Of a DNA stretch of 64,000 nt, positions 23,486 through 63,565 are shown one piece after another; within the stretch, counting starts at the first letter, position 1; each line of letters starts with the position of its first letter. The stretch is taken from assembly GCF_003289955.1 (NCBI RefSeq), contig NZ_QLZR01000001.1, positions 186,001 to 250,000 on the forward strand, written 5' to 3'. The position numbers were made by a program, and so were the translations under genes. The notes under the pieces are model-generated. The model had not been told where the DNA came from. It made no database searches and saw only the letters and a list, made by a program, of their open reading frames with translations. The stretch is from Planococcus halotolerans (GTDB taxonomy: Bacteria; Bacillota; Bacilli; Bacillales_A; Planococcaceae).

Positions 23486-23645
23486 GAAAAGCGCAAGCGC
23501 CCGTTAAGCCCCGACAAGCGCTGGAAGCCTTGACGGTAATGGCGTTCTTTGCCATTGACGGCGAGGCTTAAGCGACTCGAGGGGCTGGGCCAATGCAACA
23601 CTCGTTTCTAAGAAATTTCTGATTAATAAAAGTTATACTTTCTTA
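23486..23645 (+). repeat. Snapback repeat, copy A (3'-extended form)
   Basis: Begins GAAAAGCGCAAGCGCCCGTT. Stems are AGCCCC/GGGGCT, AAGCCT/AGGCTT and ATGGC/GCCAT; base identity differs from other copies but pairing is kept. The usual 3' end GTCTGGACA is missing and is replaced by an extension ending AAAGTTATACTTTC, which only copy F (43503) shares. Lies in the gap between trhO and the hydroxyacid dehydrogenase. Confidence 0.85.
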
Positions 23646-23657
23646 GAAAAAATAAAT

Positions 23658-23692
23658 AAAACAGCCGCAGAAACGACTGTTTTTATAGCATA
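23658..23692 (-). terminator. Probable terminator of the hydroxyacid dehydrogenase gene
   Basis: On the minus strand AACAGtCG / CGgCTGTT followed by TTATTTATTTTTT. Confidence 0.6.
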
Positions 23693-23719
23693 AGGGATTT
23701 TCACTAAATTACTTATCGA

Positions 23720-24670
23720 TCAACAAACCCTGTTTTTGATAGATTGCCCCTCTAGGCACGCTGTTATTGCTTCGGCGTTCAATGCCATCATCTCCAGCCT
23801 TGTCCGGATACCAGCGCTGCCGATATGCGGGAGGACAGTCAAATTATCGAGCTCCAGCAACTTATTGTCGAGCGGAAGCGGTTCCTGTTCAAAGACATCA
23901 AGTCCAGCTCCCCAAATTTTCCGTGATTTCAGCGCTTCGTATAAGGCGTCCTCGTCCACGATACCGCCTCTGGCGACATTTATCAGGCATGCCGTGTTCT
24001 TCATTAATTCCAATTCCCGTTTGCCGATCATCCCTTTGGTTTCTTCTGTCAAAGGAGTGAGGATCATAACAAAATCGGATTTGGCCAATAGTTCATCAAG
24101 TTCCGCATATTCCACATCTTCCAGGCTTCTGCGAGTGCGGTTGTGATACATCACTTTCATGTCAAAACCGCTGGCTCTTCTGCAGACGCCTTCTCCGATT
24201 CGTCCCATCCCGATGATTCCGAGAGTTGCGCCATAGACATCCTGTCCGGTCATGCCCATCGGCGTCCAGGATTTCCATTCACCTGAACGGACCGTTTTTT
24301 CCGCTTCAATCAGTCGTCTGGCAGTTGCCAGAAGCAAAGCGAATGCCAAATCAGCCGTCGTTTCCGTTAGGACCTCCGGCGTATTTGTTACAGCAATTCC
24401 ACGTTCCCTCGCTGCATCCAAATCAATGTTGTTATAACCCACCGCCAGATTGGAAATGATTTTTAAATCCGTCGCTGCTTCTATCAATTCCCTGTCTATC
24501 TGGTCGGAAAGCATCGTCCACAGGGCTGATGCTTTTCCGGCTTCTTCCATTAAAACTTCACGCGGAACAGGTTTTTCTTCCTCCTGCCACATCCGCACTT
24601 CATAGGAATTCTCAAGACCCTTTATTGCCTCCTCCGGCAATTTTCGGGTTATATAAACAATCGGCTTCAT
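23720..24670 (-). CDS. D-2-hydroxyacid dehydrogenase, glyoxylate/hydroxypyruvate reductase type
   Basis: NAD(P)H-dependent reductase of 316 residues. The Rossmann loop GIIGMGRIGEGV lies near 150; the active-site Arg is in NVARGGIVDE near 234, the Glu in DVFEQEPLP, and the catalytic His in PHIGSAG near 284. The pattern is that of GhrB/GyaR (B. subtilis YvcT), reducing glyoxylate and hydroxypyruvate. The ATG at 24670 follows GGAGGA; the longer frame to 24685 would cover that ribosome site. Single gene. Confidence 0.88.
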   Translation of the reverse strand: MKPIVYITRKLPEEAIKGLENSYEVRMWQEEEKPVPREVLMEEAGKASALWTMLSDQIDRELIEAATDLKIISNLAVGYNNIDLDAARERGIAVTNTPEVLTETTADLAFALLLATARRLIEAEKTVRSGEWKSWTPMGMTGQDVYGATLGIIGMGRIGEGVCRRASGFDMKVMYHNRTRRSLEDVEYAELDELLAKSDFVMILTPLTEETKGMIGKRELELMKNTACLINVARGGIVDEDALYEALKSRKIWGAGLDVFEQEPLPLDNKLLELDNLTVLPHIGSAGIRTRLEMMALNAEAITACLEGQSIKNRVC

Positions 24671-24746
24671 AAAAACATCCTCCAATCTAATTGTCTAATT
24701 ATTATAGCAATTTATGTAACCAGCTTCAATTTCAAGCTGTCCTTGC

Positions 24747-25355
24747 CTATTTCTTATGTCTTCTCCGGATTAAATACCAAACGAAAGCGACTGCGCCAAT
24801 GGCCAATAAAACATAAACAACATTCGAATAGATGTCCAGCTGCCGCATAATCTCTTCCCGGTTTTCCCCGACCGCGGCGCCGACAATGACAAGAATGGTA
24901 TTCCATATCAGCGTACCGGCAATCGTGAACAACAGAAACATTTTCACATTCATGCCGGACATGCCTGCGGGAACCGAGATAAGGCTTCGGACCACAGGAA
25001 CCAGCCTTCCAAAAAAAACGGCCCAGACGCCGTAGCGATCGAACCAGGCATCCGCTTTGTAAAGATCAGCCTTTTTAAGGCGCAGCCACTTGCCGTATTT
25101 CTCGACCAGTCCTTCCAAGCGCTCCACGCTCAGCCACCTGCCTATGTAATAAAGAATGACAGCTCCAGCAACAGAACCGGCAGTCGAAGCTGCAACGACT
25201 CCGGTAATACTCAACCCAGCTGTAGTCGTCATAAATCCGCCGACAGTCAGCACAACCTCAGATGGGACCGGCGGGAAAATATTTTCCAACAGAATCAAAA
25301 AAAATATACCCGCGTATCCATAGTCTTCCATTACAGCAGTGATCCAAGCTTCCAT
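24747..25355 (-). CDS. DedA-family membrane protein
   Basis: Integral membrane protein of 202 residues with the DedA/SNARE-associated fold: the re-entrant motif ENIFPPVPSE near 25 and FFGRLVPVVRSLISVPAG near 115. DedA proteins act as flippases for undecaprenyl phosphate or phospholipids (UptA, PetA) and affect envelope stress. Which lipid this copy handles is unknown. It lies 18 nt downstream of the membrane phosphoesterase gene, so the two are probably co-transcribed. Confidence 0.88.
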   Translation of the reverse strand: MEAWITAVMEDYGYAGIFFLILLENIFPPVPSEVVLTVGGFMTTTAGLSITGVVAASTAGSVAGAVILYYIGRWLSVERLEGLVEKYGKWLRLKKADLYKADAWFDRYGVWAVFFGRLVPVVRSLISVPAGMSGMNVKMFLLFTIAGTLIWNTILVIVGAAVGENREEIMRQLDIYSNVVYVLLAIGAVAFVWYLIRRRHKK

Positions 25356-28379: not shown

Positions 28380-29419
28380 GACAGATTCTGCCACGCAGTT
28401 TATTTTTCATGTCTTTGTTCGCAGCCATCATCTTCAGTATTTTACTTGCTCTTTTAGGGCTTCCTGCTGTAAATACCTGGTCCGTCCTTTGGGAAGACTT
28501 TGTGGCTGGACTTCCATTTGGTGTCTGGCTCTTCGTTTTGATGGTGGCTCTGTCTGCGGGAATTTCCTGGTGGACCGAGTCTTTATCGCGTTCGAAAGTT
28601 CAGGATATCGAAGAAATCTTCCAGGCCCTTCTGCGCAATGAAGACCAAACTGTCATCGAAGCTGCGCAAATGAAAACTTTGCCGCCGCAACTTTCCGTAT
28701 CCATTCTAAAACTTCAAAAATTATTGGAGTCCCAGCGCAAAAGCCTGGCGCGGATTGCCAACGAGCGGGCTGAAACTCAGGACCAGATCATCCAGGAACG
28801 GCTCGTCATGGAACGCCAGCGGCTGGCACGGGAATTGCATGACTCGGTTTCCCAGCAATTATTCGCAGCTTCCATGCTATTGTCTTCCATGACTGAAGGC
28901 AAACAAGTATCGGCCGGGCTGCTGCAGACAGAAAAAATGGTGCAGCAGGCACAATTGGAGATGCGTGCGTTACTTCTTCATTTGCGACCGGCTGCTCTGC
29001 ATGACAAAAGTTTGCGCCAGGGCTTGTTTGAACTGGTATCCGAATTGAAAGAAAAAGTCTATTTTACGATTGACCATAAACTTGAAGAGGTATCTCTGCA
29101 AAAAGGTGCGGAAGACCACCTTTTCCGCATCGCCCAGGAGACATTGTCGAATACATTGCGACATTCCAAAGCCACCGAAGTCCACATCTTATTTATAGAG
29201 CGGGATAATTTTGCCATTTTACGCATTCAGGACAACGGCATCGGTTTTGAAAGTGAGCAATCGAAATCCACTTCCTATGGTTTGAAGCATATCGAAGAGC
29301 GCGCCATCGAAATCGGTGCCACAAGCAAAATTGTATCGGTTCCTTCCGAGGGAACCATTGTTGAAGTTAAAGTACCCATTGAAAGGAAGATTCCGGATGA
29401 TACGAATTCTGTTAGTTGA
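28376..29419 (+). CDS. liaS: Sensor histidine kinase LiaS
   Basis: NarL-type sensor kinase of 347 residues. Two membrane helices (about 8-30 and 43-65) enclose a very short outside loop, the intramembrane-sensing layout. The HisKA_3 phospho-site is in RELHDSVSQQ near 160, and the ATP-binding domain shows DNGIGF near 295 and a final G-rich loop. Start ATG at 28376 overlaps the liaF stop by 4 nt. Phosphorylates LiaR on envelope stress. Confidence 0.9.
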   Translation: MRQILPRSLFFMSLFAAIIFSILLALLGLPAVNTWSVLWEDFVAGLPFGVWLFVLMVALSAGISWWTESLSRSKVQDIEEIFQALLRNEDQTVIEAAQMKTLPPQLSVSILKLQKLLESQRKSLARIANERAETQDQIIQERLVMERQRLARELHDSVSQQLFAASMLLSSMTEGKQVSAGLLQTEKMVQQAQLEMRALLLHLRPAALHDKSLRQGLFELVSELKEKVYFTIDHKLEEVSLQKGAEDHLFRIAQETLSNTLRHSKATEVHILFIERDNFAILRIQDNGIGFESEQSKSTSYGLKHIEERAIEIGATSKIVSVPSEGTIVEVKVPIERKIPDDTNSVS

Positions 29420-30032
29420 CGACCACGAAATGGTCCGAATCGGTGTATCCGCTTATTTGCAGGCACAGAAAGATATGGAAGTTGCCGGTGAAGCGGCAAA
29501 CGGCGAAGAAGCTGTTAAAATGGCACTCGAATTACGGCCGGATGTAGTTCTGATGGACATGGTCATGCCGGTCATGAACGGTGCAGAGGCTACAGAAGCA
29601 ATCATCCGTGAATGGCCCGAAGCGAAAATTATGATCGTCACCAGTTTTCTGGATGACGATAAAGTGTATCCTGCGCTAAAAGCTGGCGCAGTCAGTTATA
29701 TCCTGAAAACCTCAAAAGCTTCGCGGATTGCCGACTCGATCCGTGAAACGATGAATGGCACACCGGTATTGGAACCGGAAGTGATGAGTAAAATGATGAA
29801 ACAAATGCGCCATGAACGGGTGCTGCATGAAGATTTAACCGAACGGGAAATGGAGATTCTTCTGCTGCTCGCACATGGCTATACGAACCAGGAAATTGCC
29901 GACGAGCTCTACATAGCTTTAAAGACAGTGAAATCTCATGTCAGCAATCTGCTGTCCAAGCTGGAGGTGCATGACCGGACGCAGGCGGTCATTTATGCCT
30001 TCCAGCATAAACTGGTGGCTCCACCTGAATAG
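29397..30032 (+). CDS. liaR: Response regulator LiaR
   Basis: NarL/LuxR-type response regulator of 211 residues, the same length as B. subtilis LiaR. Receiver domain with acidic pair DDHE (8-11), phospho-Asp in VLMDMVMPV near 53, and Lys near 105; the C-terminal LuxR helix-turn-helix (LTEREMEILLLLAHGYTNQE) starts near 147. ATG at 29397 follows AAAGGA and overlaps liaS by 23 nt. Copy B of the snapback repeat starts 2 nt past its TAG. Confidence 0.92.
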   Translation: MIRILLVDDHEMVRIGVSAYLQAQKDMEVAGEAANGEEAVKMALELRPDVVLMDMVMPVMNGAEATEAIIREWPEAKIMIVTSFLDDDKVYPALKAGAVSYILKTSKASRIADSIRETMNGTPVLEPEVMSKMMKQMRHERVLHEDLTEREMEILLLLAHGYTNQEIADELYIALKTVKSHVSNLLSKLEVHDRTQAVIYAFQHKLVAPPE

Positions 30033-30033
30033 A

Positions 30034-30155
30034 GAAAAGCGACAACGCCCGTTTAGCTCTGACAGGCATAAGACGATTTGGCGAAGCGGCATGTTTTCAG
30101 CCGCACAGCCAAAGTGGCTTATGACCCGAAGAGCTGGGCCGTTGGAGTCTAGACA
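30034..30155 (+). repeat. Snapback repeat, copy B
   Basis: Starts one base after the liaR stop codon. Stems: AACG/CGTT, AGCTCT/AGAGCT, CATAAG/CTTATG, TTTGGC/GCCAAA and GCGGC/GCCGC; ends GTCTAGACA. Followed by a second, truncated 5' end (GAAAAGCGACAA) at 30159. Confidence 0.9.
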
Positions 30156-35185: not shown

Positions 35186-36070
35186 TTAAGAAAGCTCATA
35201 ATTGTCTTCAGCTTTTCTTTTTTTGCCCATCGTCAGGACCAATATTCCGCCCAGCAATAAAACGACACCGGCCCATGAAAGTCCGCTCAGCACTTCGCCA
35301 ACCACCAGTACACCGAGTATCGAAGCGGTAAGCGGTTCTGCCAACGATAAGGTGACTGCTGATGATGAAGGGATTTTCTTTAAGCCTCTTGAAAATAGTA
35401 TGTAAGCAAGGCTGGTCGTCGCAAATCCCAGATAAAGAATAATTCCGGCATCTGCGGGAATCAGGATATAGGAAATATCAAAAAAGAATAAAGATGGAAT
35501 CAGGAAAACAGCCGCTATAGAGAAGATCAAGGCGACCGCTGGCACTGCCTCCATCGATTCCAGAACGCTTTTACTGGCAATTGCATATAATGCAAACGCA
35601 AGTCCTGCCCCCAGTGCCATTGCTATGCCCAGTACATTAACGTCTGCTGCGCCTTTATTTGCGAACAGTAAAATACAGCCAATGATCGACATCATTGTAG
35701 CTGCCGACCAAATGCGATCGGGACGTCTTTTCAAAAATAGCCATTCAATCATTCCTGCCAGGACAGGAGCACTGCCGATGGCCACAACTGTACCGATTGC
35801 GATGCCGGTCAACTGGACAGAAGAAAAAAATAATGGCTGGAACAGCGCCATACTGGCCGCTGAAATGAGTACAGCCTGCCAGGAAACATTACGAATAACT
35901 AAACTTTTGGTTATTATTGTGAAAAGAAGCAGGGAAAAACCGCCTATCATCAAACGGAATGCACCGATTGTCAGCGGATGCGCTTCTCCTGAAATGAAAT
36001 TTTGTGCTGTGCCGGTCGTGCCCCAAAGCATCGCAGCAAGCAGCACCATTATATATGGTGTCGCATTCAT
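35186..36070 (-). CDS. EamA/DMT-family transporter
   Basis: Ten-helix drug/metabolite transporter of 294 residues made of two EamA repeats (about 5-140 and 150-285), with the family strings LLWGTTGT-like at the start and LSLAEPLTASILGVLVVGE near 240. Exporters of amino acids or metabolites belong here; the substrate cannot be told. ATG at 36070 after GAGGTG; a GTG 9 nt upstream overlaps that ribosome site. Divergent from the excisionase-like gene. Confidence 0.88.
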   Translation of the reverse strand: MNATPYIMVLLAAMLWGTTGTAQNFISGEAHPLTIGAFRLMIGGFSLLLFTIITKSLVIRNVSWQAVLISAASMALFQPLFFSSVQLTGIAIGTVVAIGSAPVLAGMIEWLFLKRRPDRIWSAATMMSIIGCILLFANKGAADVNVLGIAMALGAGLAFALYAIASKSVLESMEAVPAVALIFSIAAVFLIPSLFFFDISYILIPADAGIILYLGFATTSLAYILFSRGLKKIPSSSAVTLSLAEPLTASILGVLVVGEVLSGLSWAGVVLLLGGILVLTMGKKRKAEDNYELS

Positions 36071-36125
36071 ATTCTGCACCTCGAATTCCCAGTTATATCA
36101 ATTACCATACCATTATTTCAATCGT

Positions 36126-36154
36126 TTGAGATACTGCTCTTCAGCGATTATAAT
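36126..36154 (+). promoter_or_regulatory. Sigma-A promoter of the excisionase-like gene
   Basis: TTGAGA, 17 nt, TATAAT, 25 nt before the start codon. Confidence 0.65.
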
Positions 36155-36178
36155 AAAAGAAAAAGAGGAGGCGATCTT

Positions 36179-36409
36179 ATGTATATGACAGTCCCGGAAA
36201 CTGCTGCTTATTTGTCCATGCCGCAAGAGCAAGTTAATCGATATATACTCGAAGGACGTATCAAAGCAGTCCATGATGGAGAACAATACATGGTCAACAC
36301 CTCTCAGTTCGAAACACATTTCCAACAGCTGGAACTCGCCAAACAGCAGCTCGAAGAATGGAAAGCCACCCCTATACCGGATGACGTGGATATTAAAGAC
36401 GAAGACTAA
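36179..36409 (+). CDS. Excisionase-like small DNA-binding protein
   Basis: Protein of 76 residues with the helix-turn-helix_17 / excisionase layout: TVPETAAYLSMPQEQVNRYILEGRIKAVHDGEQYMVNTSQ, then a charged tail rich in Glu and Asp. Such proteins are often stand-alone regulators, not phage excisionases; no integrase is nearby. ATG at 36179, 7 nt after AGGAGG. Copy C of the snapback repeat starts one base past its TAA. Confidence 0.82.
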   Translation: MYMTVPETAAYLSMPQEQVNRYILEGRIKAVHDGEQYMVNTSQFETHFQQLELAKQQLEEWKATPIPDDVDIKDED

Positions 36410-36410
36410 A

Positions 36411-36530
36411 GAAAAGCGTAGGCGCCCGTTAAGCTCTGAAAGGCATAAGACGAATCTGCGTAGTGGCGGTCTTTGCCACGCAGCTGATATGGCTTATGAC
36501 CCGAAGAGCTGGGCCGCCGAAGTCTGGACA
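36411..36530 (+). repeat. Snapback repeat, copy C
   Basis: Reference copy: 120 nt, GAAAAGCG to GTCTGGACA. Stems GGCG/CGCC, AGCTCT/AGAGCT, CATAAG/CTTATG, CTGCG/CGCAG and GTGGC/GCCAC around a GGTCTTT loop. Begins right after the stop codon of the preceding gene. Confidence 0.92.
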
Positions 36531-36534
36531 CAAA

Positions 36535-36674
36535 GAAAAGCGGAGGCGCCCGTTTAGCTCTGTAAGGCAAGAGATGCAGGAGCAATAAGGGGTTGAACGG
36601 ACCAACGAAGTGGCCTTGGCCACGCAGTTGGGCTGGCTTATGACCCGAAGAGCTGGGACGCCGGAGTCTGGACA
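36535..36674 (+). repeat. Snapback repeat, copy D (20-nt longer)
   Basis: Follows copy C head to tail with a 4-nt gap. The CATAAG arm is replaced by a longer unrelated stretch; AGCTCT/AGAGCT, CCAAC/GTTGG and GTGGCC/GGCCAC stems remain. Confidence 0.9.
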
Positions 36675-36710
36675 AAAAGAAAACCGGAATCCCAAAACCT
36701 TAAGAATGAA

Positions 36711-36740
36711 GAAAAAGCATCCCCTTCGGGATGCTTTTTC
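36711..36740 (-). terminator. Terminator of metYX
   Basis: Stem GAAAAAGCATCCC / GGGATGCTTTTTC with a CTTC loop. Confidence 0.88.
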
Positions 36741-36749
36741 TTGTTCTAA

Positions 36750-37766
36750 TTATTGCCGAGTCGCTTCAATCTGCTCTTTTGTTTGTAAAAATCCCCGGAT
36801 TAATTCGTTCCATTTTTCGAATTCCACCAGAAATCCATCGTGCCCAAAATCAGTTTCGACGATTTCCCATCGGGCTTCTGGCTGCTCTTCCAGCCAGGGA
36901 ATCATAAGTTCAGCGGGATAAAGCAAATCGTGTGTGTACGAAACGGAAAATATCGGAACATCTATTTTTCGTTCCCCCACGTCATGGCTGTTCATGGCTT
37001 TCAATAAAACCAGGTAGCTATTGGCATCGAACCGCTGCGCCAGTTTCCGCCCCTGATAATCCAAATACGTTTCCACTTGGAAATTCGTTCCACTTTCGGA
37101 GCGTCCGAATCGATCATTGAACAGTTTGCCGCTCCGGTAACTGATCATGCCAACAATCCTTGCCAGATGGAATCCGTTGAAATCGGGTGATCCAACGTAA
37201 TTTCCATTATGGAAATCAGGGTCATTCTCGATTGCCCGAATGCCAATATGGTTAAAGGCAAGCGCATAGCTGCTGAAAGCCGGGGTGACGGCGAGCGGAA
37301 CAATAGATTCGGTAACATCCGGATACAATGCTCCCCATTCGAGTGCTTTCATGCCCCCCAGCGAACCGCCGATTACGGACTTCAATTTATTTATTCCCAG
37401 CGTCTTCAATGCCTGATACTCGGCATTCACCATATCTTTGATCGTCAGCAAAGGAAATTCCGACCGATAAGGCTTACCAGTAAGTGGATTTAAGGATAGC
37501 GGGCCGGTCGAGCCATTGCAGCCTCCGAGTACATTAAAGGAGATTACTTGATATTTTTCTGTATCAATGGCTCTTCCGGGACCGGCCAAGCCGCTCCACC
37601 AACCCGGATGCTCTGCACTGCCGACAGCATATTGATCCCCGGTAAGCGCATGGCAGATCAGGATGGCCGGAGCAGAAGGATCACCGCTTCGTTCATACGC
37701 CAATTCCGCCTCTTCCAGCACATGGCCCGATTCCAACACTAAGTTCCCGATGGATACTGTCCCCAT
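36750..37766 (-). CDS. metX: Homoserine O-acetyltransferase
   Basis: Alpha/beta-hydrolase-fold acyltransferase of 338 residues that moves the acetyl (or succinyl) group of acyl-CoA to homoserine. The nucleophile Ser lies in GGSLGGMKALEW near 138; Asp is in SVSYTHDLLYP near 287 and His in FGHDGF near 317. The oxyanion segment HALTGD is near 39. Second gene of the metY-metX operon, 11 nt after metY, under the SAM riboswitch. ATG at 37766 after GGAGGAG. Acetyl versus succinyl specificity is not decided. Confidence 0.93.
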   Translation of the reverse strand: MGTVSIGNLVLESGHVLEEAELAYERSGDPSAPAILICHALTGDQYAVGSAEHPGWWSGLAGPGRAIDTEKYQVISFNVLGGCNGSTGPLSLNPLTGKPYRSEFPLLTIKDMVNAEYQALKTLGINKLKSVIGGSLGGMKALEWGALYPDVTESIVPLAVTPAFSSYALAFNHIGIRAIENDPDFHNGNYVGSPDFNGFHLARIVGMISYRSGKLFNDRFGRSESGTNFQVETYLDYQGRKLAQRFDANSYLVLLKAMNSHDVGERKIDVPIFSVSYTHDLLYPAELMIPWLEEQPEARWEIVETDFGHDGFLVEFEKWNELIRGFLQTKEQIEATRQ

Positions 37767-37777
37767 ATTTTCTCCTC

Positions 37778-39067
37778 CTATACTTCCTGGACTGCCGCCG
37801 CTTTAATGGCCTGCTCCAAGTCAGCAATCAGATCTTCCGGATTTTCCAGTCCGACTGATAAACGGATCAGTTCTTCCGTGACGCCGGACTGCTTCAATCC
37901 CTCCGCGCTTAATTGCTGATGCGTTGTTGAAGCCGGGTGGATAATCAACGATTTGGCATCTCCGACATTCGCCACATGCGACCATAAACCGACGCCGTCA
38001 ATTACTTTTCTGCCTGCTTCCCTGCCGCCCTTGATACCGAAGTTGACGATGGAACCAAATGTATCTTTCAGGTATTTCTTTGCTAACCCATGAGACGGGT
38101 GATCTTCGAAGCCGATATAATTAACCCATTCGACCTGTGGATGGTTTCTCAGGTAGTCCGCGATGATTCCCGCATTACTGCTGTGTTTTGGCAAACGCAA
38201 ATGCAATGTTTCCAAGCCCTGCAAAAATGCATGGGCACTGTCTGGACTGAGTGACGGACCAAAATCACGCAATAACTGAACGCGTAATTTCGTTGCGAAA
38301 GATGCGCCTTCCGCATCTATTCCGTAACGGATACCATGGTAGCTGTCGTCAGGCTGTGTGTAGTTCGGAAATCTTTCATGGTTCCAATTGAACTTGCCGC
38401 CATCTACCGCGATGCCGCCGATTGTAGTGCCGTGGCCGCCAATCCATTTTGTCGCTGAATGGATAACGACATCTGCTCCAAAAGCTATCGGGTTGCTGCC
38501 ATATGGAGAAGCGAATGTATTGTCGATTAATAATGGAATATTGTATTCATGCGCAATCGCTGCAACCTTCTCTACATCGAATACATTCAGACTAGGGTTG
38601 CCGATTGTTTCTCCGAAGAAAACTTTTGTCCGCTCAGTTACAGCCGAACGGAAATTTTCAGGGTCTGTACCGTCGACGAATTTCACTGTAATGCCATAAC
38701 GCGGCAACGTATTGGCAAACAGATTATATGTGCCTCCGTATAAATTGCTGTCGGCAACCACTTCATCACCCGCTTCAGCGATATTGAGAATTGAAAATGC
38801 GATTGCGGCCATTCCAGATGACAAAGCGACTGCGGCTGTGCCACCTTCAAGAAGGGCCACTCGCTGTTCAAATACATCCACTGTCGGATTCATGATGCGC
38901 GAATAAATATTTCCTGCCTCTTTCAACCCGAAAAGATTCTGTGCATGCTCCGTGTCACGGAATACATATGAAGTCGTCTTATGGATGGGCACTGCCCGCG
39001 ATCCTGTGACAGGATCTGGCTGCTGTCCTCCGTGAAGTAAATTTGTCTCTGCTTTGAAATTTGTCAT
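37778..39067 (-). CDS. metY: O-acetylhomoserine sulfhydrylase
   Basis: PLP enzyme of 429 residues of the Cys/Met metabolism family that joins sulfide to O-acetylhomoserine giving homocysteine. The PLP Lys is in HSATKWIGGHG near 208; the start TNLLHGGQQPDP and the ending LSVGLENPEDLIADLEQA are typical of MetY. The length (about 430) excludes cystathionine gamma-synthase, which is near 380. First gene of the operon; ATG at 39067 after GGAGG. Expressed when SAM is low. Confidence 0.94.
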   Translation of the reverse strand: MTNFKAETNLLHGGQQPDPVTGSRAVPIHKTTSYVFRDTEHAQNLFGLKEAGNIYSRIMNPTVDVFEQRVALLEGGTAAVALSSGMAAIAFSILNIAEAGDEVVADSNLYGGTYNLFANTLPRYGITVKFVDGTDPENFRSAVTERTKVFFGETIGNPSLNVFDVEKVAAIAHEYNIPLLIDNTFASPYGSNPIAFGADVVIHSATKWIGGHGTTIGGIAVDGGKFNWNHERFPNYTQPDDSYHGIRYGIDAEGASFATKLRVQLLRDFGPSLSPDSAHAFLQGLETLHLRLPKHSSNAGIIADYLRNHPQVEWVNYIGFEDHPSHGLAKKYLKDTFGSIVNFGIKGGREAGRKVIDGVGLWSHVANVGDAKSLIIHPASTTHQQLSAEGLKQSGVTEELIRLSVGLENPEDLIADLEQAIKAAAVQEV

Positions 39068-39120
39068 TTTTCATTCCTCCAGTAATTTTAATAGATGGAC
39101 CTTAAAGGAGATGAGGGAAT

Positions 39121-39290
39121 AGAAAAAGGCCCCCTTCTAATTAGAAGAGGGCCGCTATACACGGAGTTTCCTCCTCTCATCTTCCAGACTGTCGTTCCAG
39201 TCTGTAGGAATTAGCACCTTTCCAAGCTGGGTTGCTTGGTGGTTGCCGGGCATCGCAGGGCCTATTCCCTCCGCCACTCTTGATAAGAGT
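39121..39290 (-). promoter_or_regulatory. SAM-I (S-box) riboswitch with terminator
   Basis: On the minus strand the leader of metY has P1 CTCTTATC/GATGAGAG (39282-39289 with 39174-39181) and conserved S-box strings GTGGCGGAGGGA, GGCCCTGCGATGCCCGGCAA and GGTGCTAATTCCTAC. Downstream lies a terminator hairpin, GGCCCTCTTCTAA/TTAGAAGGGGGGCC (39128-39153), with a T-run. SAM binding would end transcription before metY. Confidence 0.96.
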
Positions 39291-39422
39291 ATTCAGATTC
39301 AGTTTTCCATCTTGTTGAGAAGTATAAAGAATGATACGATATTTTGTCAAGAAGATTGTCGGATAATTTTGAAACTTTATCTTTGTTCATACGTTTACTA
39401 TTAAGAAAGGCAGGGGCAAAAT

Positions 39423-40064
39423 ATGACTCTTTGGATTGTTTCAGCACTTATTTCAGGTTATGTAATCGGTTGCCTTCATGGCTCGCTGGTTGCCCAAATT
39501 TTATCCGGCACCAACATCAAAGCAACAGGCGTAAAAAATTCGGGAGCCTCCAATGCCGCAATCGTCCTTGGATGGAAATACGGCGCACTGGTCGCATTTC
39601 TCGATATCTTTAAAGGGTTTGCCGCAGTTATGGCGATGCGCCTGTTACTTGGCAGCAGCAGCCTTCCTTCCGAAACGGTTTGGGCAATTTTGTTCTTTAT
39701 TGCGGCCGGAGTCGTTCTTGGCCATAACTTCCCCTTCTATATGAAGTTCAACGGCGGCAAAGGAACCGCGGCCGTTATCGGAGTGATGATTGCGCTGGAC
39801 TGGCAACTCGGACTTCTTGGGCTCGCACTTCTTATCGTAATCGCACTTGCCACCGATTATCTGGTCATCGGTGTACTCGCATTATATGCCGTTTTTCTCC
39901 TTATCGCTTTCTGGCCGGCGGATGGGCTATGGCCTTATGTTATCGCTCTTTCTTTGATGGCGATGGCTTTTCTGAAACACCTTGAAAATATCCGCCGAGT
40001 AAAAGACGGCACTGAAAACAAAGTGTCAGCTGTTTTGCGAAAGAAAAGCGCAAGCGCCCGTTAA
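39423..40064 (+). CDS. plsY: PlsY-family glycerol-3-phosphate acyltransferase, tail made by a repeat
   Basis: Membrane protein of 213 residues with five or more helices. PlsY motifs are present: NSGASNAA near 40, HNFPFYMKFNGGKGTAAV near 101 and a C-terminal KHLENIRRVKDGTENK. PlsY uses acyl-phosphate to acylate glycerol-3-phosphate. The first motif differs from the usual GSGNxGATN, so it may be a paralogue rather than the main enzyme. The last residues KKSASAR and the TAA stop come from copy E of the snapback repeat, so the native tail was replaced. RBS GGCAGGGG. Confidence 0.85.
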   Translation: MTLWIVSALISGYVIGCLHGSLVAQILSGTNIKATGVKNSGASNAAIVLGWKYGALVAFLDIFKGFAAVMAMRLLLGSSSLPSETVWAILFFIAAGVVLGHNFPFYMKFNGGKGTAAVIGVMIALDWQLGLLGLALLIVIALATDYLVIGVLALYAVFLLIAFWPADGLWPYVIALSLMAMAFLKHLENIRRVKDGTENKVSAVLRKKSASAR

Positions 40065-40162
40065 GCCCTGAAAGGCATAAGACGGATCAGCGGAGTGGCG
40101 GTTTTTGCCACGCAGCTGATATGGCTTATGACCCGAAGGGGTGGGCCGCTGGAGTCTGGACA
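40043..40162 (+). repeat. Snapback repeat, copy E
   Basis: 120 nt. Its first 22 nt are read as the end of plsY and supply the stop codon. Stems AGCG/CGCT, CATAAG/CTTATG, CAGCG..TGGC/GCCA.CGCAG; the AGCCCT/AGGGGT arm has one mispair. Confidence 0.9.
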
Positions 40163-40165
40163 AAG

Positions 40166-40203
40166 AAAGCTGCCAATCCCCACTGAGGGCCGGCAGCTTT
40201 TTC
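40166..40203 (+). terminator. Terminator after plsY
   Basis: Stem AAAGCTGCC / GGCAGCTTT, 17-nt loop, then TTTC. Confidence 0.75.
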
Positions 40204-40270
40204 AGATTTCCTGTATTCTTTTCATTCGTGGTAAAATATAGCCAGTACATACTTCAGGAGGTCTTTATCC

Positions 40271-41488
40271 ATGATTGAAACTTTAATCGAACGATTGATC
40301 CGCTATGCAAAAATCGATACACAATCCAATTTTGAAAACCGTGAAACACCTTCCACTCCAGGACAGTGGGATCTGTTGCGTGAATTGGAAAAGGAAATGA
40401 AGGAAATCGGCCTGGAAGAAGTCCAAATGGACGATTACGGCTATCTTTTCGGCACACTTCCGGCTACTTCGGATAAAGAACTTCCTGTAGTCGGATTTCT
40501 TGCCCATGTCGACACGGCTACTGACTTTACAGGCAAAAACGTCAATCCCCAGCGCATAGACAATTACGGCGGAAAAGATATTCCGTTGAACGATTCAGTG
40601 GCGATGACAGTAAAAGATTTCCCGGATCTGCAGAATTATATCGGCCACACACTGATTACGACAGACGGCACGACTCTTCTCGGCGCAGACAATAAAGCCG
40701 GTGTTGCTGAAATTATGACAGCGATGGAGTACCTCATCCAGCATCCTGAGATTGAACACGGCAAAATCCGTGTCGCTTTTACACCGGATGAGGAAATCGG
40801 ACGCGGCCCCCATAAATTCGATGTCGAACGCTTTGGTGCCGAATACGCCTACACAATGGACGGCGGTCCGCTGGGTGAACTACAATACGAAAGCTTTAAT
40901 GCGGCAGCTGGAAAGCTGACAGTCCAAGGGAAAAGCGTCCACCCCGGATCAGCCAAGGATAAGATGGTCAATGCTTCAACGATCGCCGTCAAATTCCAGA
41001 ATGCCATGCCTGAAAATGAAGTTCCTGAAAAAACAGAAGGCTATGAAGGGTTCATTCATCTGAACAGCTTTAAAGGTGACGTGGAACAAGCGGTATTGAG
41101 TTATATCATCCGCGACTTCGACAAAGAGAAATTCGAAGCGAAAAAAATGCATATGCAGCAAACTGCCGAAAAATTGCAGGCACAGTATGGCGCTGACGCA
41201 CTGACACTGGAATTGGACGATCAATATTACAATATGAAAGAAAAGATCGAGCCGGTCATGCACATTGTGGACGCTGCTGAAGCTGCAATGAAGACACTTG
41301 GCATCGAACCAAATATCGTACCGGTTCGCGGAGGCACCGATGGTTCTCAGCTTTCCTATATGGGAATGCCAACGCCGAACATCTTCACAGGCGGCGAAAA
41401 TTACCACGGCAAATACGAATTCATCTCTGCAGAAAACATGGAGAAGGCAGCACAATTGATCGTCGAAATCGTAAAATCTCAAAAATAA
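40271..41488 (+). CDS. pepT: Peptidase T (tripeptide aminopeptidase)
   Basis: Cytosolic zinc aminopeptidase of 405 residues that removes the N-terminal residue of tripeptides. M20B motifs: HVDT (78-81) first metal/catalytic Asp, GADNKAG near 139, catalytic Glu pair in TPDEEIG near 175, MDGG near 197, and the last ligand in [11 protein letters not shown] near 380. Length is normal for PepT. ATG at 40271 after AGGAGG. Single gene. Confidence 0.94.
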
Positions 41489-41497
41489 ACAGGAAAT

Positions 41498-41526
41498 AGC
41501 GCCCTCAAGCTAAGGGCGCTTTTCTT
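41498..41526 (+). terminator. Terminator of pepT
   Basis: AGCGCCCT / AGGGCGCT followed by TTTTCTT; it abuts the stop of the convergent STAS gene. Confidence 0.82.
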
Positions 41527-42544
41527 ATATAATGCTTCTTCCATTCTGTGCGAGTGCAAAATGAATGCCGTGTTGCAGGGTCTGGAAGCAATTGAATTTC
41601 GAAATATCAATTCCACTTTCAGAAATCACCATGCTCATTGCCGGAGAAATTCCCACCAGGATTGTTTCCGTTCCGATGAGCCCGGCTGCAGCACCCAGCT
41701 TTTCAATCAGTGCGGCAGCTTGCTGTGTGAAATTATTATTCAGTCCTGTCAGGTCGAGAACCAAATACTTCGCTTTATAAGTCGGCAGGTTTTGCAAGGT
41801 CTTGATCATTAACTCCTCTGCCCGTTCCTCATCATAAGTTCCCAGCAGCGGCACTACTACAATGCCATCCAACACCGGAATGATCGGCGACGATAATTCT
41901 TTGACCAGCAAGGTCAATTCCGCTGTCTTTTCTTCCACCAGGTTCTGCAGCTGACGGATTTGCTTGGCTTCATTGGAACGCGCCAGCCTGTGGATATTCT
42001 CTTCGACGGTTTCATCTGAAGGAAAATAACGGATGACACTTTCGCTGTATCCTTCCAATTGAAAATGGTCTACTTCGTACCATATATTTTCACCAAAAAG
42101 TTTGGTGAAAATACCGGCATAATGGGCAGGAAGAAACCTGCCGCCAGTTTTTTTCTGTTGTGCAATATTAATGCTATGCTCCCAGCTATCCTTTAAATGG
42201 ACTTCAACGGTTTTCTTTTCGATATCCAGCTTATGTGTTTCCGCTAATCCCCAACCAGCTGAAGCATATGTATTAGTGATCAGTGCCGCCGCTTCTGCTG
42301 CATCCACATTTTCCATTTCTGAAAAATAATCGCCGACTACTATGCCCTGCCGATACCCGGTAGTTTCCATCACTACCTCTGCCGCATCTTCTCCTGCTAT
42401 TTCTTCTATCGTATCAAAAAACATTTTCATCGCTGTGGAAGTCCAAAAAAGGACAGAATCCTGACCTTCGAATAAAAATTTCCCTTTTTCAAGGTCCCAT
42501 TCAAAACTCAGTCCTCCAACATTAATGGAAGCTTGTGTATTCAT
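41525..42544 (-). CDS. RsbR-like STAS-domain protein (stressosome paralogue candidate)
   Basis: Cytosolic protein of 339 residues. The C-terminal 140 residues form a STAS domain with the RsbR-type strings VVVPLLGTYDEERAEELM and LVLDLTGL; a Thr (NNFTQQ) sits where RsbT phosphorylates Thr171 of RsbRA, and a Ser replaces the second Thr (SPAMSM). A coiled coil (about 190-215) joins it to an N-terminal sensor domain with a V4R/heme-NO-binding-like look (EWDLEKGKFLFEG at the start), not the globin fold of RsbRA. ATG at 42544 after GAGGAG. It neighbours sigma-B-type promoters, suiting a role in stress input. Confidence 0.75.
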   Translation of the reverse strand: MNTQASINVGGLSFEWDLEKGKFLFEGQDSVLFWTSTAMKMFFDTIEEIAGEDAAEVVMETTGYRQGIVVGDYFSEMENVDAAEAAALITNTYASAGWGLAETHKLDIEKKTVEVHLKDSWEHSINIAQQKKTGGRFLPAHYAGIFTKLFGENIWYEVDHFQLEGYSESVIRYFPSDETVEENIHRLARSNEAKQIRQLQNLVEEKTAELTLLVKELSSPIIPVLDGIVVVPLLGTYDEERAEELMIKTLQNLPTYKAKYLVLDLTGLNNNFTQQAAALIEKLGAAAGLIGTETILVGISPAMSMVISESGIDISKFNCFQTLQHGIHFALAQNGRSII

Positions 42545-42659
42545 ATAAAAACTCCTCTCGTTCAGTGATTCTATTTTACCACATATTAAAACAGGATTTA
42601 GCAGGTTATCTCAAGTACCGTGACTCCCCATTATAAACTTTCCGGACGACTCCCTCAAT

Positions 42660-42685
42660 GTTTTAAATGTATTCATAACAGGAAT
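42660..42685 (+). promoter_or_regulatory. Sigma-B-like promoter
   Basis: GTTTTA, 14 nt, AGGAAT, upstream of the 77-residue acidic protein. Fits GTTT...GGWAW with the first G of the -10 changed. Confidence 0.5.
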
Positions 42686-42720
42686 ACACTGATAAGACTA
42701 ATTGAAAGAGGTGTTCCAAT

Positions 42721-42954: not shown

Positions 42955-42996
42955 CCCCTATTTTCAGGAAAAAGGCGAATTCAGATTTGAAAGCAG

Positions 42997-43025
42997 AAGA
43001 TCCGTTATGATAACGGATCTTTCTT
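42997..43025 (+). terminator. Terminator of the small acidic gene
   Basis: Stem AAGATCCGTTAT / ATAACGGATCTT, then TCTT. Confidence 0.85.
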
Positions 43026-43027
43026 AT

Positions 43028-43052: not shown

Positions 43053-43076
43053 AAGGAGATTAAAAGGAGTGATTGG

Positions 43077-43713: not shown

Positions 43714-45675
43714 CTATTTCATTTTTTTCAATAAATATAAAAGATATGGTGTCCCGATTAAAGCGACAATCAGTCCACTCGGTATGTCATTTGGCGCAAT
43801 CAATGTGCGGCCGATGAAATCCGCTGTCACGAGCAGCAGCCCGCCGATCAGACCGGAAGACAGCATCAGCGGCAAATGGCGGAAACCAACCAGACGCCTT
43901 GCAATATGCGGCGCAACCAATCCGATAAAGCCGATCGTTCCGACAATGGAAACTGCGGCAGTGGATATCGCCACTCCAACGACAAGCGCCCAAACGCGGG
44001 TGGAGCGGATATTCAATCCAAGTCCTGCAGCGACATCATCTCCGAAAGTCAATGTATCCAGGCTGCGTGTGATGTAGACCGCCGGCCAGATAAACAAAGC
44101 GAACAGAATCAGTGCAAATTGCACATCATCCCATCCTTTCGCGTACGTGCTGCCCGACAACCAGACAAGTGCGCTGGCAACGGCAAGTTTTGCTTTCACA
44201 ACAAGAATTTGAGTCGCTGCGGAACCGAACGCTGAAATGGCGATTCCCATCAATGCGACTAGCATCGGCTGAAAGTTATTTTTCCAGGCCGTCAGCAATA
44301 TGATGCCAAGCGCCAGAGATGCCCCCAGTGTGGCACCGAGCGGCAGAAATGCGGGAGGAATCGCCGGAAATACGACCAGTAACAACATCGCTCCTGCTCC
44401 TCCCATCGACGTGACACCGAGCACACTGGCATCTGCAAGAGGATTTCTTAAGACTCCCTGCAGAATCACACCGGTAATCGCCAGCATGACGCCAACGATG
44501 AAGGCAGTCAATACACGCGGCACCCGGAATTCCCACACGACCGGCGATAACCAGTCGAAATTCCATGCGCTGCCGTTAAAGCTTAAAGCAAGCGTCGTAA
44601 CACCGATGATTGCTGCTATCAAAATAGGGACGAGCATCTTCAAACGGATAGGTTTTGTCGTTCCGCCCATCTGCCGCTCGCCGCGCTTCATAGACCTGGC
44701 TGTTTTCCATGCCAAGTATAATAACCAAGGTCCGCCGATCAGCGCGGTCATCGCGCCAGCTGGCACTTCCTGCCCTGGCTGGATCAGACGACCAAGTACA
44801 TCTGCACCAATGAGCATGACACTGCCCCACAGGAATGAATGGATCAATATTTGAAGATGGCCACGGATGCCCATCATGCGGACAATGTGCGGTGCCATCA
44901 ATCCGATAAATCCGATGGGCCCGACAACACTTACAGTCGTTGCCGCTAAAACGATGGCCATTCCCCATGCCGCCAGTTTTACCAGGCGGACATTTTGGCC
45001 AAGCGAAGAAGCGATATCTTCTCCAAGAGACAAGATATCCATCGGCTTAGCGAGCAACAGAACAACGGCAAATGTAACAAAAATCACAGGTGCCGCAAAT
45101 TGCACGCCCCCCCAGTTCAACTGCACCAATGTGCCGGATCCCCATAAGAAGAGCCCATTAGTTTCATTTTCAAAAAGCAATTGCATCGTCCCGGTCATGG
45201 ACGCGAAGAGCAGCGAGATGATCATTCCTGTCAACGCTACACGGACCGGATCCATCTGCTTCCCAGAAAGACCTATGACAAGCAAAGATGATATGACTGC
45301 ACCCAATAACGCCGTTGCAAACGGAAAGCCGCCGACAAAACCGGGAAAAAGGATCGTGCTGAGCACAACAAAAAAGAATGCGCCGGCATTTATGCCGAGA
45401 GTTCCGGGAGAAGCAAGCGGATTATTCGTCAGCGTCTGCAGAACTGCTCCGGACACTGCCAGCGCCCCACCGGCCAAAATACCGACTGCCAGCCGCGGCA
45501 AGCGGAGACTGACCACAATATCCTGGATACGCCCTTCCGTCCAAACACCGGAAAGCAGATCCGAAACGGAATAATCCGCCTGCCCTTGCGTCAAATGAAT
45601 AATAGATAACGCAAAAAGCAGGAAAAAGCCCCCTGTCAAAGAGACAAAGGACTTCGCTTTCAGTTTGCCTTGCAT
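43714..45675 (-). CDS. Fused FecCD-type siderophore permease (FhuB-like)
   Basis: Membrane permease of 653 residues made of two FecCD domains in tandem (about 1-325 and 335-653). Each half ends with the family strings VSVVGPIGFIGLMAPHIVR or VSIVGTIGFIGLVAPHIAR and a Gly-rich cytoplasmic loop that contacts the ATPase. E. coli FhuB has this fused form; most Bacilli use two separate genes. Its ATG overlaps the binding-protein stop (TAATG). With the upstream lipoprotein and the divergent ATPase it makes one Fe-siderophore importer. Confidence 0.92.
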   Translation of the reverse strand: MQGKLKAKSFVSLTGGFFLLFALSIIHLTQGQADYSVSDLLSGVWTEGRIQDIVVSLRLPRLAVGILAGGALAVSGAVLQTLTNNPLASPGTLGINAGAFFFVVLSTILFPGFVGGFPFATALLGAVISSLLVIGLSGKQMDPVRVALTGMIISLLFASMTGTMQLLFENETNGLFLWGSGTLVQLNWGGVQFAAPVIFVTFAVVLLLAKPMDILSLGEDIASSLGQNVRLVKLAAWGMAIVLAATTVSVVGPIGFIGLMAPHIVRMMGIRGHLQILIHSFLWGSVMLIGADVLGRLIQPGQEVPAGAMTALIGGPWLLYLAWKTARSMKRGERQMGGTTKPIRLKMLVPILIAAIIGVTTLALSFNGSAWNFDWLSPVVWEFRVPRVLTAFIVGVMLAITGVILQGVLRNPLADASVLGVTSMGGAGAMLLLVVFPAIPPAFLPLGATLGASLALGIILLTAWKNNFQPMLVALMGIAISAFGSAATQILVVKAKLAVASALVWLSGSTYAKGWDDVQFALILFALFIWPAVYITRSLDTLTFGDDVAAGLGLNIRSTRVWALVVGVAISTAAVSIVGTIGFIGLVAPHIARRLVGFRHLPLMLSSGLIGGLLLVTADFIGRTLIAPNDIPSGLIVALIGTPYLLYLLKKMK

Positions 45676-49645: not shown

Positions 49646-49750
49646 TTTATCAGCGATTTTTGACGGTTTATCGTCGATTTTTTTCTGTTTATCAGCGATT
49701 TTCGATGGTTTATCAGCGGTTTTTCGTTGTTTATCAGCGATTCTCATTGA
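49646..49750. repeat. 21-nt-periodic TTTATCAGCGATTTT repeat (5 units)
   Basis: TTTATC begins at 49646, 49667, 49688, 49709 and 49730, exactly 21 nt apart, each followed by (A/G)(A/T)CG(A/G)TTTT-like sequence. Lies in the gap after the second FhuF-like gene. Confidence 0.8.
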
Positions 49751-54742: not shown

Positions 54743-54780
54743 GAAAAGCGGAAGTGCCTGTTCAGTCCTGACTTATATCC
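54743..54780 (+). repeat. Snapback repeat, copy J (deletion remnant)
   Basis: 38 nt: the 5' end of an element like copy I, joined directly to its late TTATATCC segment. The lost ~70 nt in copy I are flanked by TGAC at both ends, so the deletion is between short direct repeats. Confidence 0.75.
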
Positions 54781-54784
54781 AGAA

Positions 54785-61416: not shown

Positions 61417-61533
61417 GAAAAGCGTAAGCGCCCGTTAAGCTCTGAAAGACATAAGACAGACCAACGAAGTGGCCTTGGCCGCGCAGTTGGACTGGCTTAT
61501 GACCCGAAGAGCTGGGCCGCTGAAGTCTAGACA
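61417..61533 (+). repeat. Snapback repeat, copy G
   Basis: 117 nt. Stems AGCG/CGCT, AGCTCT/AGAGCT, ATAAG/CTTAT, CCAAC/GTTGG and GTGGCC/GGCCGC; ends GTCTAGACA. Confidence 0.9.
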
Positions 61534-61539
61534 AAAAAA

Positions 61540-61566
61540 ATCCCCCTGCACCCTGCAGGGGGATAG
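61540..61566 (-). terminator. Terminator of the esterase gene
   Basis: ATCCCCCTGCA / TGCAGGGGGAT, then TTTTTTTG on the minus strand. Confidence 0.87.
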
Positions 61567-62174: not shown

Positions 62175-62265
62175 AAAATTACCTCCCGTACGATTTCGTC
62201 TTTTAATAAGTTCCCATTTTAAGGGTAAATGAAACTTATCTCGAATTCAAGATATTTCCCTTAAG

Positions 62266-62293
62266 AAAAGACCACCCGCTTTTTAGCGAGTGG
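62266..62293 (-). terminator. Terminator of hslO
   Basis: AGCCACtCGCT / AGCGgGTGGt with AAAA loop on the minus strand, then CTTTTCTT. Confidence 0.72.
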
Positions 62294-62299
62294 CTATTT

Positions 62300-63181
62300 T
62301 CAATATTTCGCTTGTTCCAAAAGGTTCTCCAGATTTTCTTTGGAGAAATGGTATTTTTCATTGCAGAAATGGCATTCCGCCTCTGCCTGTCCGTCTGTTT
62401 CGATCATATCTTCAATTTCTTCTGAACCAAGGCTTGTAATGGCATTCGTTATCCGTTCACGTGAACATTGGCAAGTGAATGTGACCGGCATTTCGTCCAG
62501 TATCTTCACATTCTCTTTTCCAAGAACTTCATGAAGAATATCTTCCGGCGTCATTCCTTCACTGATCATTTTCGAAATCGTTGGGATTGTCGACAAACGC
62601 TGTTCAATATTCGTAATAATCTCTTCCGGAGTTCCGGGCATCAATTGGATGATAAACCCTCCTGAAGCCAAAATCGTATTGTCTGGATTGACTATTACAC
62701 CTACGCCAACAGAAGAAGGAACCTGTTCGGACGTGACGATATAATGTGTAAAGTCATCGCCGATTTCACCTGAAACGATCGGCACCTGGCCGATAAACGG
62801 CTGAAGTAAACCGATATCCTTGGAAACAGATAAGGTCCCCTCTGTTCCGACTGCCCGGCGTACGTCGAGTTTGCCGATTTCATTCAATTCGAAATGAGTC
62901 TGCGGTTTTGACACATAGCCCCGTACTTCGCCTTTGGCATTGGCGTCGACCAGAATGTTTCCGATAGGTCCGCCGCCGTTGATGCTGATTGTCAATTTTT
63001 CTTCGCCTTTCATCATGGCGCCCATCATGACACTTGCTGTCATTGAGCGTCCAAGCGCTGCAGAGGCGGTTGGCCATGTATAATGGCGTCGCTGTGCCTC
63101 ACTTACCGTGTCTGTCGTTTTTGCTGCATATGCGCGAACCTGGCCATCAAAGGCCAGAGCTTTAATAAGATAATCTCCCAT
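62300..63181 (-). CDS. hslO: Hsp33 redox-regulated chaperone
   Basis: Cytosolic holdase of 293 residues turned on by oxidative unfolding. The C-terminal zinc centre is CQC (about 238-240) and CHFC (about 271-274), the four Cys that form disulfides on activation. The N-terminal domain shows [17 protein letters not shown] near 43 and the Gly-rich NGGGPIGN near 68. ATG at 63181 after GAGGGAG. Length matches the family. Confidence 0.95.
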
Positions 63182-63321
63182 TTTTTCTCCCTCTCATATA
63201 AAGTATCCTGCTGGCTTACTGCACCGGACACTATGTTGATTCATTTAACAATACAAGCGTAAAGTTTTGCTTCATATAGATTAAAACCTCTGCAAATAAA
63301 AGTAAATAAATCTGCTTGCTA

Positions 63322-63565
63322 GAAAAGTGACGGCACCCGTTAAGCTCTGAAAGGCATAAGACGATTTGGCGAAGCGGCGTCTTTTCAGCCGCGCAGTCTC
63401 GAAAAGCGGAAGTGCCTGTTCAGCTCTGACAGGTATAAGACGAATCAGCGTAGTGGCGCTCTATGCCACGCAGCTGGTTTGACTTATATCCCGAAGAGCT
63501 AGGCACTGGAGACTAGACACAAAGTGGCTTATGACCCGAAGAGCTGGGTCGCCGGAGTCTGGACA
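63322..63565 (+). repeat. Snapback repeat, copy H, split by copy I
   Basis: 5' part 63322-63400 and 3' part 63520-63565 join to make one full element (ACCC/GGGT outer stem, GCGGC/GCCGC inner stem), interrupted by copy I. The 3' end is GTCTGGACA; a further truncated 5' end (GAAAAGCACG) follows at 63568. Confidence 0.88.
63401..63519 (+). repeat. Snapback repeat, copy I, inserted inside copy H
   Basis: 119-nt complete element from GAAAAGCGG to GACTAGACA. Stems GTGCCT/AGGCAC, AGCTCT/AGAGCT and TATAAG/CTTATA; the first and last are compensatory variants of other copies. Confidence 0.9.

Follow-up and report, generated by a model that had tools for sequence, protein, structure and literature searches.

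A mobile hairpin repeat that tends to lie at transcription terminators in Planococcus halotolerans

A stretch of 64,000 nucleotides from Planococcus halotolerans, hereafter the window (positions 186,001 to 250,000 of contig NZ_QLZR01000001.1; G000:C1:186001-250000, where G000 is the 3.62-Mb genome of this species), contains ten starts of a dispersed sequence of about 120 nt that folds into one long hairpin. What is this element, and why is its fold retained? The first-pass annotation had proposed that selection keeps the fold or that the element needs it to spread. This proposal is supported by covariation controls and by an excess of G·U over A·C pairs, and the second option is the better fit. 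With a probability of about 0.6, the element is a non-autonomous mobile repeat made of one hairpin, which is constrained in the fold of its plus strand, sited at terminators, and moved as single-stranded DNA (ssDNA) by an enzyme acting in trans. It encodes no protein, and its repeated insertion beside transcription stop signals suggests a parasite homing to harmless gene ends.

Empty sites and copy turnover

Has the element moved? Every site in the window was compared with the syntenic pieces of four relatives. Four copies have empty counterparts: the site of copy A (23486-23646) is empty in G005, G319, and G334, that of copy E (40043-40162) in G133 and G003, and those of copy G (54743-54782) and copy H (61417-61533) in G133, where the empty site of copy G reads CCACAAA followed directly by AAAAGGACC. 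Conversely, the elements at G319 37852, at G319 44056, and at G319/G334 48020/22883 are found only in relatives and have empty counterparts. In the best case, G319 44056, the native terminator GGGCGCTTTTC is followed by CTC, by an inserted unit running from TGTCC to GCGCTTTTC, and by CTATATAATG, while in P. halotolerans GGGCGCTTTTC runs into TTATATAATG. The inserted unit ends with its own GCGCTTTTC, and there is no target duplication at this clean tail-less site beyond the element's own end. Since syntenic relatives have empty sites, the element is a mobile repeat and not a gene-bound RNA.

Copy B (30034-30155) is absent in G319 and G334 and has a shortened version in G005. Copy F (43503-43623) has no counterpart by syntenic comparison, the neighbouring gene differing in the closest relatives, and other genomes show no element there. 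The copy sets at one and the same site differ between sister species: the site at 63322 holds 244 nt in P. halotolerans, 366 nt in G005, and 121 nt in G319, and the number of copies at 61417 also differs.

Anatomy and fold of the element

A hidden Markov model (HMM) profile built from eight window copies recovered all ten starts of the first-pass annotation on the plus strand, with E values from 5.7e-37 to 1.5e-4; eight of them are members of the profile and match by construction, while those at 54743 and 63322 lie outside the profile set and were nevertheless found. Eight window copies are full or nearly so. Copy G is a remnant of an internal deletion, in which positions 1-30 of the left end and about 10 nt of the tail, TTATATCCAG, remain in an A-tract ahead of a terminator-like hairpin on the plus strand. 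Because its right arm is absent, this copy cannot show the AGCG/CGCT pairing that had been attributed to it. The start at 63322 is real, but what had been listed as a copy of its own is the left half (63322-63397) of copy I, an outer element interrupted by the inner copy J (63401-63519) and continuing in a right half at 63522-63565; all three parts were placed by the HMM profile on the plus strand. The owner of the arms GTGCCT/AGGCAC and TATAAG/CTTATA is the copy at 63401 rather than that at 63322. The ends described as common to the ten copies are also less uniform than stated, since 23486 lacks the GTCTGGACA end and there are variants GTCTAGACA (30034 and 61417), GTCAGGACA (43503), and GACTAGACA (63401).

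From 44 copies, the consensus is GAAAAGCG-NN-AGCGCC-CGTT-AGCTCT-GAAA-GGCATAAG-(variable apical stems)-CTTATGACC-CGA-AGAGCT-GGGC-CGCT-GGAGTCTGGACA. Seven of the eight positions of the hairpin foot, GAAAAGCG, are invariant in these copies, and the remaining one is conserved in at least 90%. RNAalifold gave one long interrupted hairpin of 29 pairs, 22 of which have at least one double change. That the stems change and yet stay paired was confirmed against shuffled and slid controls: the covariation score was 0.363 in 44 copies (shuffled, 0.195 +/- 0.008; slid, at most 0.091) and 0.434 in 133 distinct copies (shuffled, 0.210 +/- 0.005; slid, at most 0.097), where shuffling leaves the kinship of the copies in place and alignment A2 was fitted to the model. 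The 133 copies have 511 double-changed cells, as compared with 105 after shuffling and at most 82 in the slid controls.

Which strand is under constraint? The paired columns hold 230 G·U cells and 41 A·C cells, with G·U ahead in 22 pairs and A·C in five (p 0.0015). The ratio is 169:41 without the single habitual G·U pair, and 71:16 in the 39 copies below 85% identity. Where a change preserves a wobble pair on the plus strand, the pair on the other strand is broken; thus, the fold of the plus strand is the constrained one. This argues that it is the fold of the plus strand that has been kept, with the reservation that A2 was fitted to a plus-strand model. Folded singly, two copies are stable on either strand, whether RNA or DNA, with the plus strand folding better, and their RNA folding energies are -46.7 and -46.6 kcal/mol (z -2.7 and -4.8).

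In some window copies a conserved 3′ tail of about 55 nt extends beyond GGACA and brings the element to about 175 nt. The tail of copy F (GTGCAACACTC..TTATACTTTCATATCCAT) occupies 43624-43678 on the plus strand, next to a hairpin whose second arm is AGATTC/GAATCT. A tail ending in TTATACTTTCTTATCCAT, with up to six substitutions, follows 29 of the 99 clusters with an intact right end and 5 of 297 controls. A search of the whole genome with the tail DNA gave 14 matches up to E 10, 10 of which adjoin known clusters. There are also type-2 copies, which have the same ends and a different interior (e.g., L017:1378-1498). Copy A is of this kind: it is a plus-strand, tail-type copy with a type-2 interior (CAAGCGCTGG..), its right GGACA end is lost, and it matches the HMM over positions 1-112. 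In other genera, cousins of the element keep the ends and have many different interiors. It is the ends and not the interior that define the element. A second repeat, CTCTTTGCGACGAAGCnAGCGnAGCGATGCAGGAGCA, was seen in either orientation within several element copies (e.g., L023:1800-1857 and L021:1384-1497).

Gene ends and terminators as the target

The first-pass annotation had recommended a covariance model. Such a model (R1, from 44 copies) was run on the P. halotolerans genome and its relatives and gave at least 133 matches in the former, a lower bound since 150 of 1385 candidates were scored. The stretches of this genome fetched for containing matches, which are not an exhaustive set, hold 204 matches in 112 clusters, 60 of them single. 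Ninety-nine clusters have an intact left end (13 of the 112 were dropped for lacking it) and, counted separately, 99 have an intact right end.

Where do the copies lie? A same-strand stop codon of an open frame of at least 80 codons is found within -3 to +10 nt of the left end in 57 of 99 clusters, as compared with 3.1% of random intergenic positions in the window, while the stop codon of a convergent gene is that close to the right end in 1 of 87. In the window, copy B begins 1 nt past the TAG of a response-regulator gene (29316-30032) and has the right flank CTA-GAAAAGCGAC; the full-length copy C (36411-36530) begins 1 nt past the stop codon of an open reading frame (ORF) at 36002-36409; copy F begins immediately past the TAA of 43026-43502. 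All three are on the plus strand. On the other side of the element, a hairpin with an A- or T-run lies in the 80 nt past the right end in 55 of 99 clusters, as compared with 7 of 99 when the test is moved 200 nt beyond and 9 of 297 after mononucleotide shuffling. Thirty-eight clusters are between convergent genes, 23 are sense and 32 antisense in tandem pairs, and six are between divergent genes, the last being a raw count with no genome-wide rate beside it.

In at least half of the copies examined, the element occupies the A-tract side of a terminator-like hairpin and turns its 3′ end towards it. With a sense gene, the element tends to stand between the stop codon and the terminator; with an antisense gene, just beyond the T-tract. 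Copy H, for example, is on the plus strand, antisense to mhqD, and directly beyond the terminator T-tract of that gene, whose terminator-like hairpin (61534-61564, placed by sequence without a strand assignment) has its A-tract facing the copy. The stop codon itself was considered as the target and was dropped on account of plsY. There, copy E lies on the plus strand within the 3′ end of a plsY-like frame, at the A-tract of a hairpin that overlaps the stop codon; this native terminator-like hairpin (AAGAAAGCTGCC..GGCAGCTTTTTC) now occupies 40163-40203 on the same strand, and similar hairpins are found in the empty relatives. The last residues of the product, a PlsY-like acyltransferase, and its stop codon are read from the element (40043-40064), and the relatives end differently, also via truncated or tandem copies. 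Downstream of plsY in some relatives, a stretch resembling a SAM riboswitch by eye opens with ACTTTCTTATCCA, like the end of the element's tail, perhaps by chance.

The target and the element share a motif. In 33 of 99 clusters, as compared with 6 of 396 controls, GAAAAGC with up to one mismatch occurs no more than 14 nt from the right end, and the element's own left end is also of this type. By sequence comparison, this left end, GAAAAGC(G), is similar to the 5′ half of an intrinsic terminator. The left end GAAAAGCG imitates the target site, so that occupied sites are hit again. The left flank prefers TAAA, not TTTAT. The element strand disagrees with the sign of the local GC skew, averaged over the fetched stretches only, in 71 of 112 clusters (p 0.006); this would fit insertion into lagging-strand ssDNA and is treated as weak and not leaned on.

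The arrays tell a similar story about occupied sites. Copy D (36535-36674, plus strand) stands in tandem to copy C with a 4-nt spacer, is 20 nt longer in its interior, and is 69% identical to C. In 11 of 13 pairs of adjacent full copies, both partners are closer to copies elsewhere than to each other; of the other two pairs, one has a single such partner and one is a local duplication. Adjacent copies are thus mostly unrelated, which indicates repeated arrival at occupied sites; tandem neighbours being mostly independent arrivals, insertion does not put an end to the targeting of a site. In nine cases, the second copy is truncated on its 3′ side. Nested double hairpins composed of positions 1-74, 1-120, and 77-120 were found in 15 clusters, with the nesting point the same to within a few bases. 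The inner copy belongs to a GAAGTGCCTG-type subfamily in eight, to a GAAACGGCCG-type in six, and to one further variant. The nucleotides to its left (TCTC, ACTT) tend to complement its 3′ end, with exceptions. The nesting is read as one or a few old events that later spread as units. In another genome, seven head-to-tail copies with a period of 124 and nearly equal scores were seen at G314:C1:623153-624017.

Could all of this arise without an enzyme, if replication switched templates at GAAAAGC and quasi-palindrome correction produced the covariation? The motif is indeed common to target and element, and arrays and internal deletions are frequent. However, such correction is strand-neutral and would not yield the G·U excess, and the persistence of conserved unpaired positions and the constancy of the unit boundaries and of the orientation also make this explanation distinctly unlikely.

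Alternatively, the element may be useful to the host in the 3′ untranslated region (UTR), for example as an mRNA stabiliser or an auxiliary terminator, and may have been spread or kept for an RNA function. The constrained plus-strand fold, the 57 starts right after a same-strand stop codon, and the stability of the two folded copies as RNA would agree with this. Yet a host RNA function is quite unlikely because copies are gained and lost among sister species and are found in both orientations relative to the neighbouring genes. In the 32 clusters that are antisense in tandem gene pairs, the mRNA would carry the other strand; presence, number, and nesting vary between sister species at the same gene; and at the loci compared there is no tie to particular genes across species. 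A cis-regulatory RNA would keep its place and orientation at orthologous genes, where instead the copy sets differ and both orientations occur.

The reading as a mobile element moved as ssDNA offers the following route. A trans-acting enzyme would cut and join ssDNA at a CTTTTC-like motif beside the hairpin, which is the logic of IS200/IS605-type and attC-type systems. The element would be carried as a folded strand or circle, and its insertion would leave no target duplication. Homing to terminators would make the insertion nearly harmless and let the copy number rise. If true, this would be an unusual safe-site strategy for a bacterial element without a protein, and would explain a gene-end repeat of many genera that has no Rfam match. 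Since many copies lie between stop codon and terminator, 3′ UTRs are changed; moreover, copies can replace the C-termini of proteins, as in plsY, which is relevant to annotation and to 3′-end transcript data.

Distribution, candidate enzymes, and known systems

Is the element confined to this genus? With model R1, it was found in all 24 sampled genomes of the genus, P. halotolerans included, in 76 of 121 genomes of the family (15 of 19 genera, counting its own), and in none of 16 genomes from other families of the class. Searching with a left-end pattern of cousins, GAAAAGCGNARGCGCCNNGNNNAGC, yielded at least 120 stretches, and 14 named genera are among the 80 matches listed: Bacillus, Anoxybacillus, Neobacillus, Mesobacillus, Anaerobacillus, Pseudalkalibacillus, Sutcliffiella, Rossellomorea, Alteribacillus, Lederbergia, Litchfieldia, Lysinibacillus, Metabacillus, and Peribacillus. 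In a class-wide sample, this pattern occurs in 10 of 299 genomes with up to 55 copies each, and the reversed pattern in none; the genus Planococcus itself gives zero because its copies are one base shorter there. A looser scan of 120 cousin loci gave 192 left-end and 138 right-end matches, the right ends not being tallied per genus. The cousins keep the relation to stop codons: 36 of 108 have one at -3 to 10 nt, as compared with 5 of 88 at a control position 300 nt upstream. The tail is shared by cousins, and theirs carries TTTATAC inside the element. In plasmid and phage collections, copy C had no blastn match at E 1e-5. A wider proposal can be made tentatively, at somewhat less than even odds: a class of selfish hairpins that mimic the 5′ half of a terminator and home as ssDNA through an enzyme may be widespread in Bacillales, with terminators as safe harbours and a left end that recreates the target and so lets arrays and nested double hairpins build up.

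Several observations weigh against the reading as a terminator-homing element moved as ssDNA. The target preference has many exceptions: 42 of 99 copies have no same-strand stop codon nearby, and 44 of 99 right flanks fail the hairpin test, some by the strict rule and some without a visible terminator, while the test is passed by 13 of 99 left flanks, taken as the 80 nt ahead of the left end. The preference is thus a strong tendency and not an absolute rule. Part of the G·U excess could come from a mutational strand bias. A direct repeat of 8 nt, TTAAGAAA, is found at the tail-type site G319 37852 and a 7-nt AAAGAAA at plsY, and a classical target duplication would also give such repeats. No enzyme or autonomous partner was found among the Y1/RAYT genes, group II reverse transcriptases (RTs), and cousin loci examined.

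The direct repeats bear on the possibility of a classical miniature inverted-repeat transposable element (MITE). The full tail form (ATAAGAAAAGCG..GTTATACTTTCTTAT) would then have short terminal inverted repeats and owe its origin to a DDE-type insertion sequence that has not been seen, with the tail-less copies as derived forms. The frequency of the tail, its matches beside known clusters, its occurrence in cousins, and the clean site with TTAAGAAA agree with this, and in the tail form ATAAGAAA and TTTCTTAT resemble each other as terminal inverted repeats would. In contrast, the 120-nt form has no terminal inverted repeat (GAAAAGCG vs TGTCCAGAC), the clean tail-less site shows no duplication besides the element's own end, and an orientation towards a hairpin is not known as a usual trait of MITEs. 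Among 120 cousin loci, each up to 8 kb long, no autonomous version with the element ends and a gene inside was found, the spans from left to right end being 4-354 nt. Three left-to-tail spans (360, 1031, and 1334 nt) have no transposase-like frame as judged by eye; of the frames, one resembles an SGNH-type hydrolase and another recalls sigma-factor or phage genes, and the spans look like left-end remnants beside ordinary genes. A MITE origin is considered unlikely.

A second candidate is the RAYT (Y1 transposase) of the genus, which would move the element as a REPIN-like repeat. A hairpin with a short 5′ tag recalls the REP logic, and 13 of 20 genomes of the genus have a Y1 match (a single one in 11 of these, mostly in a frame of about 200 aa). 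However, the seven genomes without a match carry 9 to 90 scored element copies, the element-rich G016 and G007 being among those that lack it, and the 1.5 kb around each of ten Y1 loci are free of the element. At three of them (L280, L281, and L287 of G008, G010, and G012), the Y1 gene is flanked by a different inverted repeat, AATTGTG..CACAGGGACA, spaced by about 65 nt, which is a REPIN-like family distinct from the element. Mobilisation by this transposase is thus very unlikely.

Finally, the element might be copied from RNA and placed at T-tracts by an RT, in a use of a group IIC intron enzyme resembling that made by short interspersed elements. The target type is as known for group IIC introns, and the nine second copies truncated on the 3′ side would suit such copying. 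But a group II RT was matched in six of 24 genomes (above the cut-off in four) and in none of the other 18, including G000, G005, and G319, despite the turnover at their shared sites; other RTs were not searched for. This route seems highly improbable.

The first-pass annotation knew of no named family for the repeat, and Rfam agrees. At the gathering score, the only match over the window was a SAM riboswitch (RF00162, 87 bits, 39174-39289 on the minus strand), with no intron match, and with permissive settings the region 36000-44000 yielded 18 matches (E up to 5), of which only that riboswitch reached the gathering score. The riboswitch lies upstream of a gene pair containing MetX. Elsewhere in the window, five 21-nt tandem units starting with TTTATC lie between genes at 49646-49750. 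A literature search with the element's end sequences and topics gave no paper recognised as describing it, most subscription papers being outside its scope. Of six end strings, only gctggagctggaca had matches, mostly pig nutrition titles; these were taken as primers and set aside.

The element therefore belongs to a known kind, the non-autonomous hairpin elements, and its distinguishing trait is terminator homing. Group IIC introns insert directly after the T-tract of a terminator in one orientation, and the element resembles them in its preferred T-tract target and orientation. It differs in that it has no ribozyme-sized body and its own genome has no group II RT match. An integron attC site is an imperfect palindrome used as a folded single strand, in tandem arrays with a common core, and by this general description the element may be compared to attC or to a gene-less cassette. 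With REP/REPIN sequences and their RAYTs, as partly described in the available text of PMC6006769, it would share non-autonomous hairpins at gene ends, an ssDNA logic, and a possible HUH enzyme in many hosts. Unlike them, the element is one 120-nt hairpin without a GTAG/CGTC tag at its foot, and Y1 has another repeat at the loci examined and is absent from some element-rich genomes. The nearest published kind, as far as the available parts of PMC6542083 and PMC3446304 describe it, is bcr1 (with bcr2 and bcr3), repeats confined to the B. cereus group and associated with TTTAT motifs. Like the element, bcr1 is dispersed, non-coding, intergenic, MITE-like, and present in many copies. Unlike bcr1 as described there, the element occurs in other genera, starts with GAAAAGCG, and favours terminators, a distinction made by description and not by alignment. 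In a related genus, Bhal-1 of Bacillus halodurans is an intergenic stem-loop repeat of 74 bp in 36 copies, according to the available part of PMC2267715. By this description, it resembles the element and could be a piece of one of its cousins.

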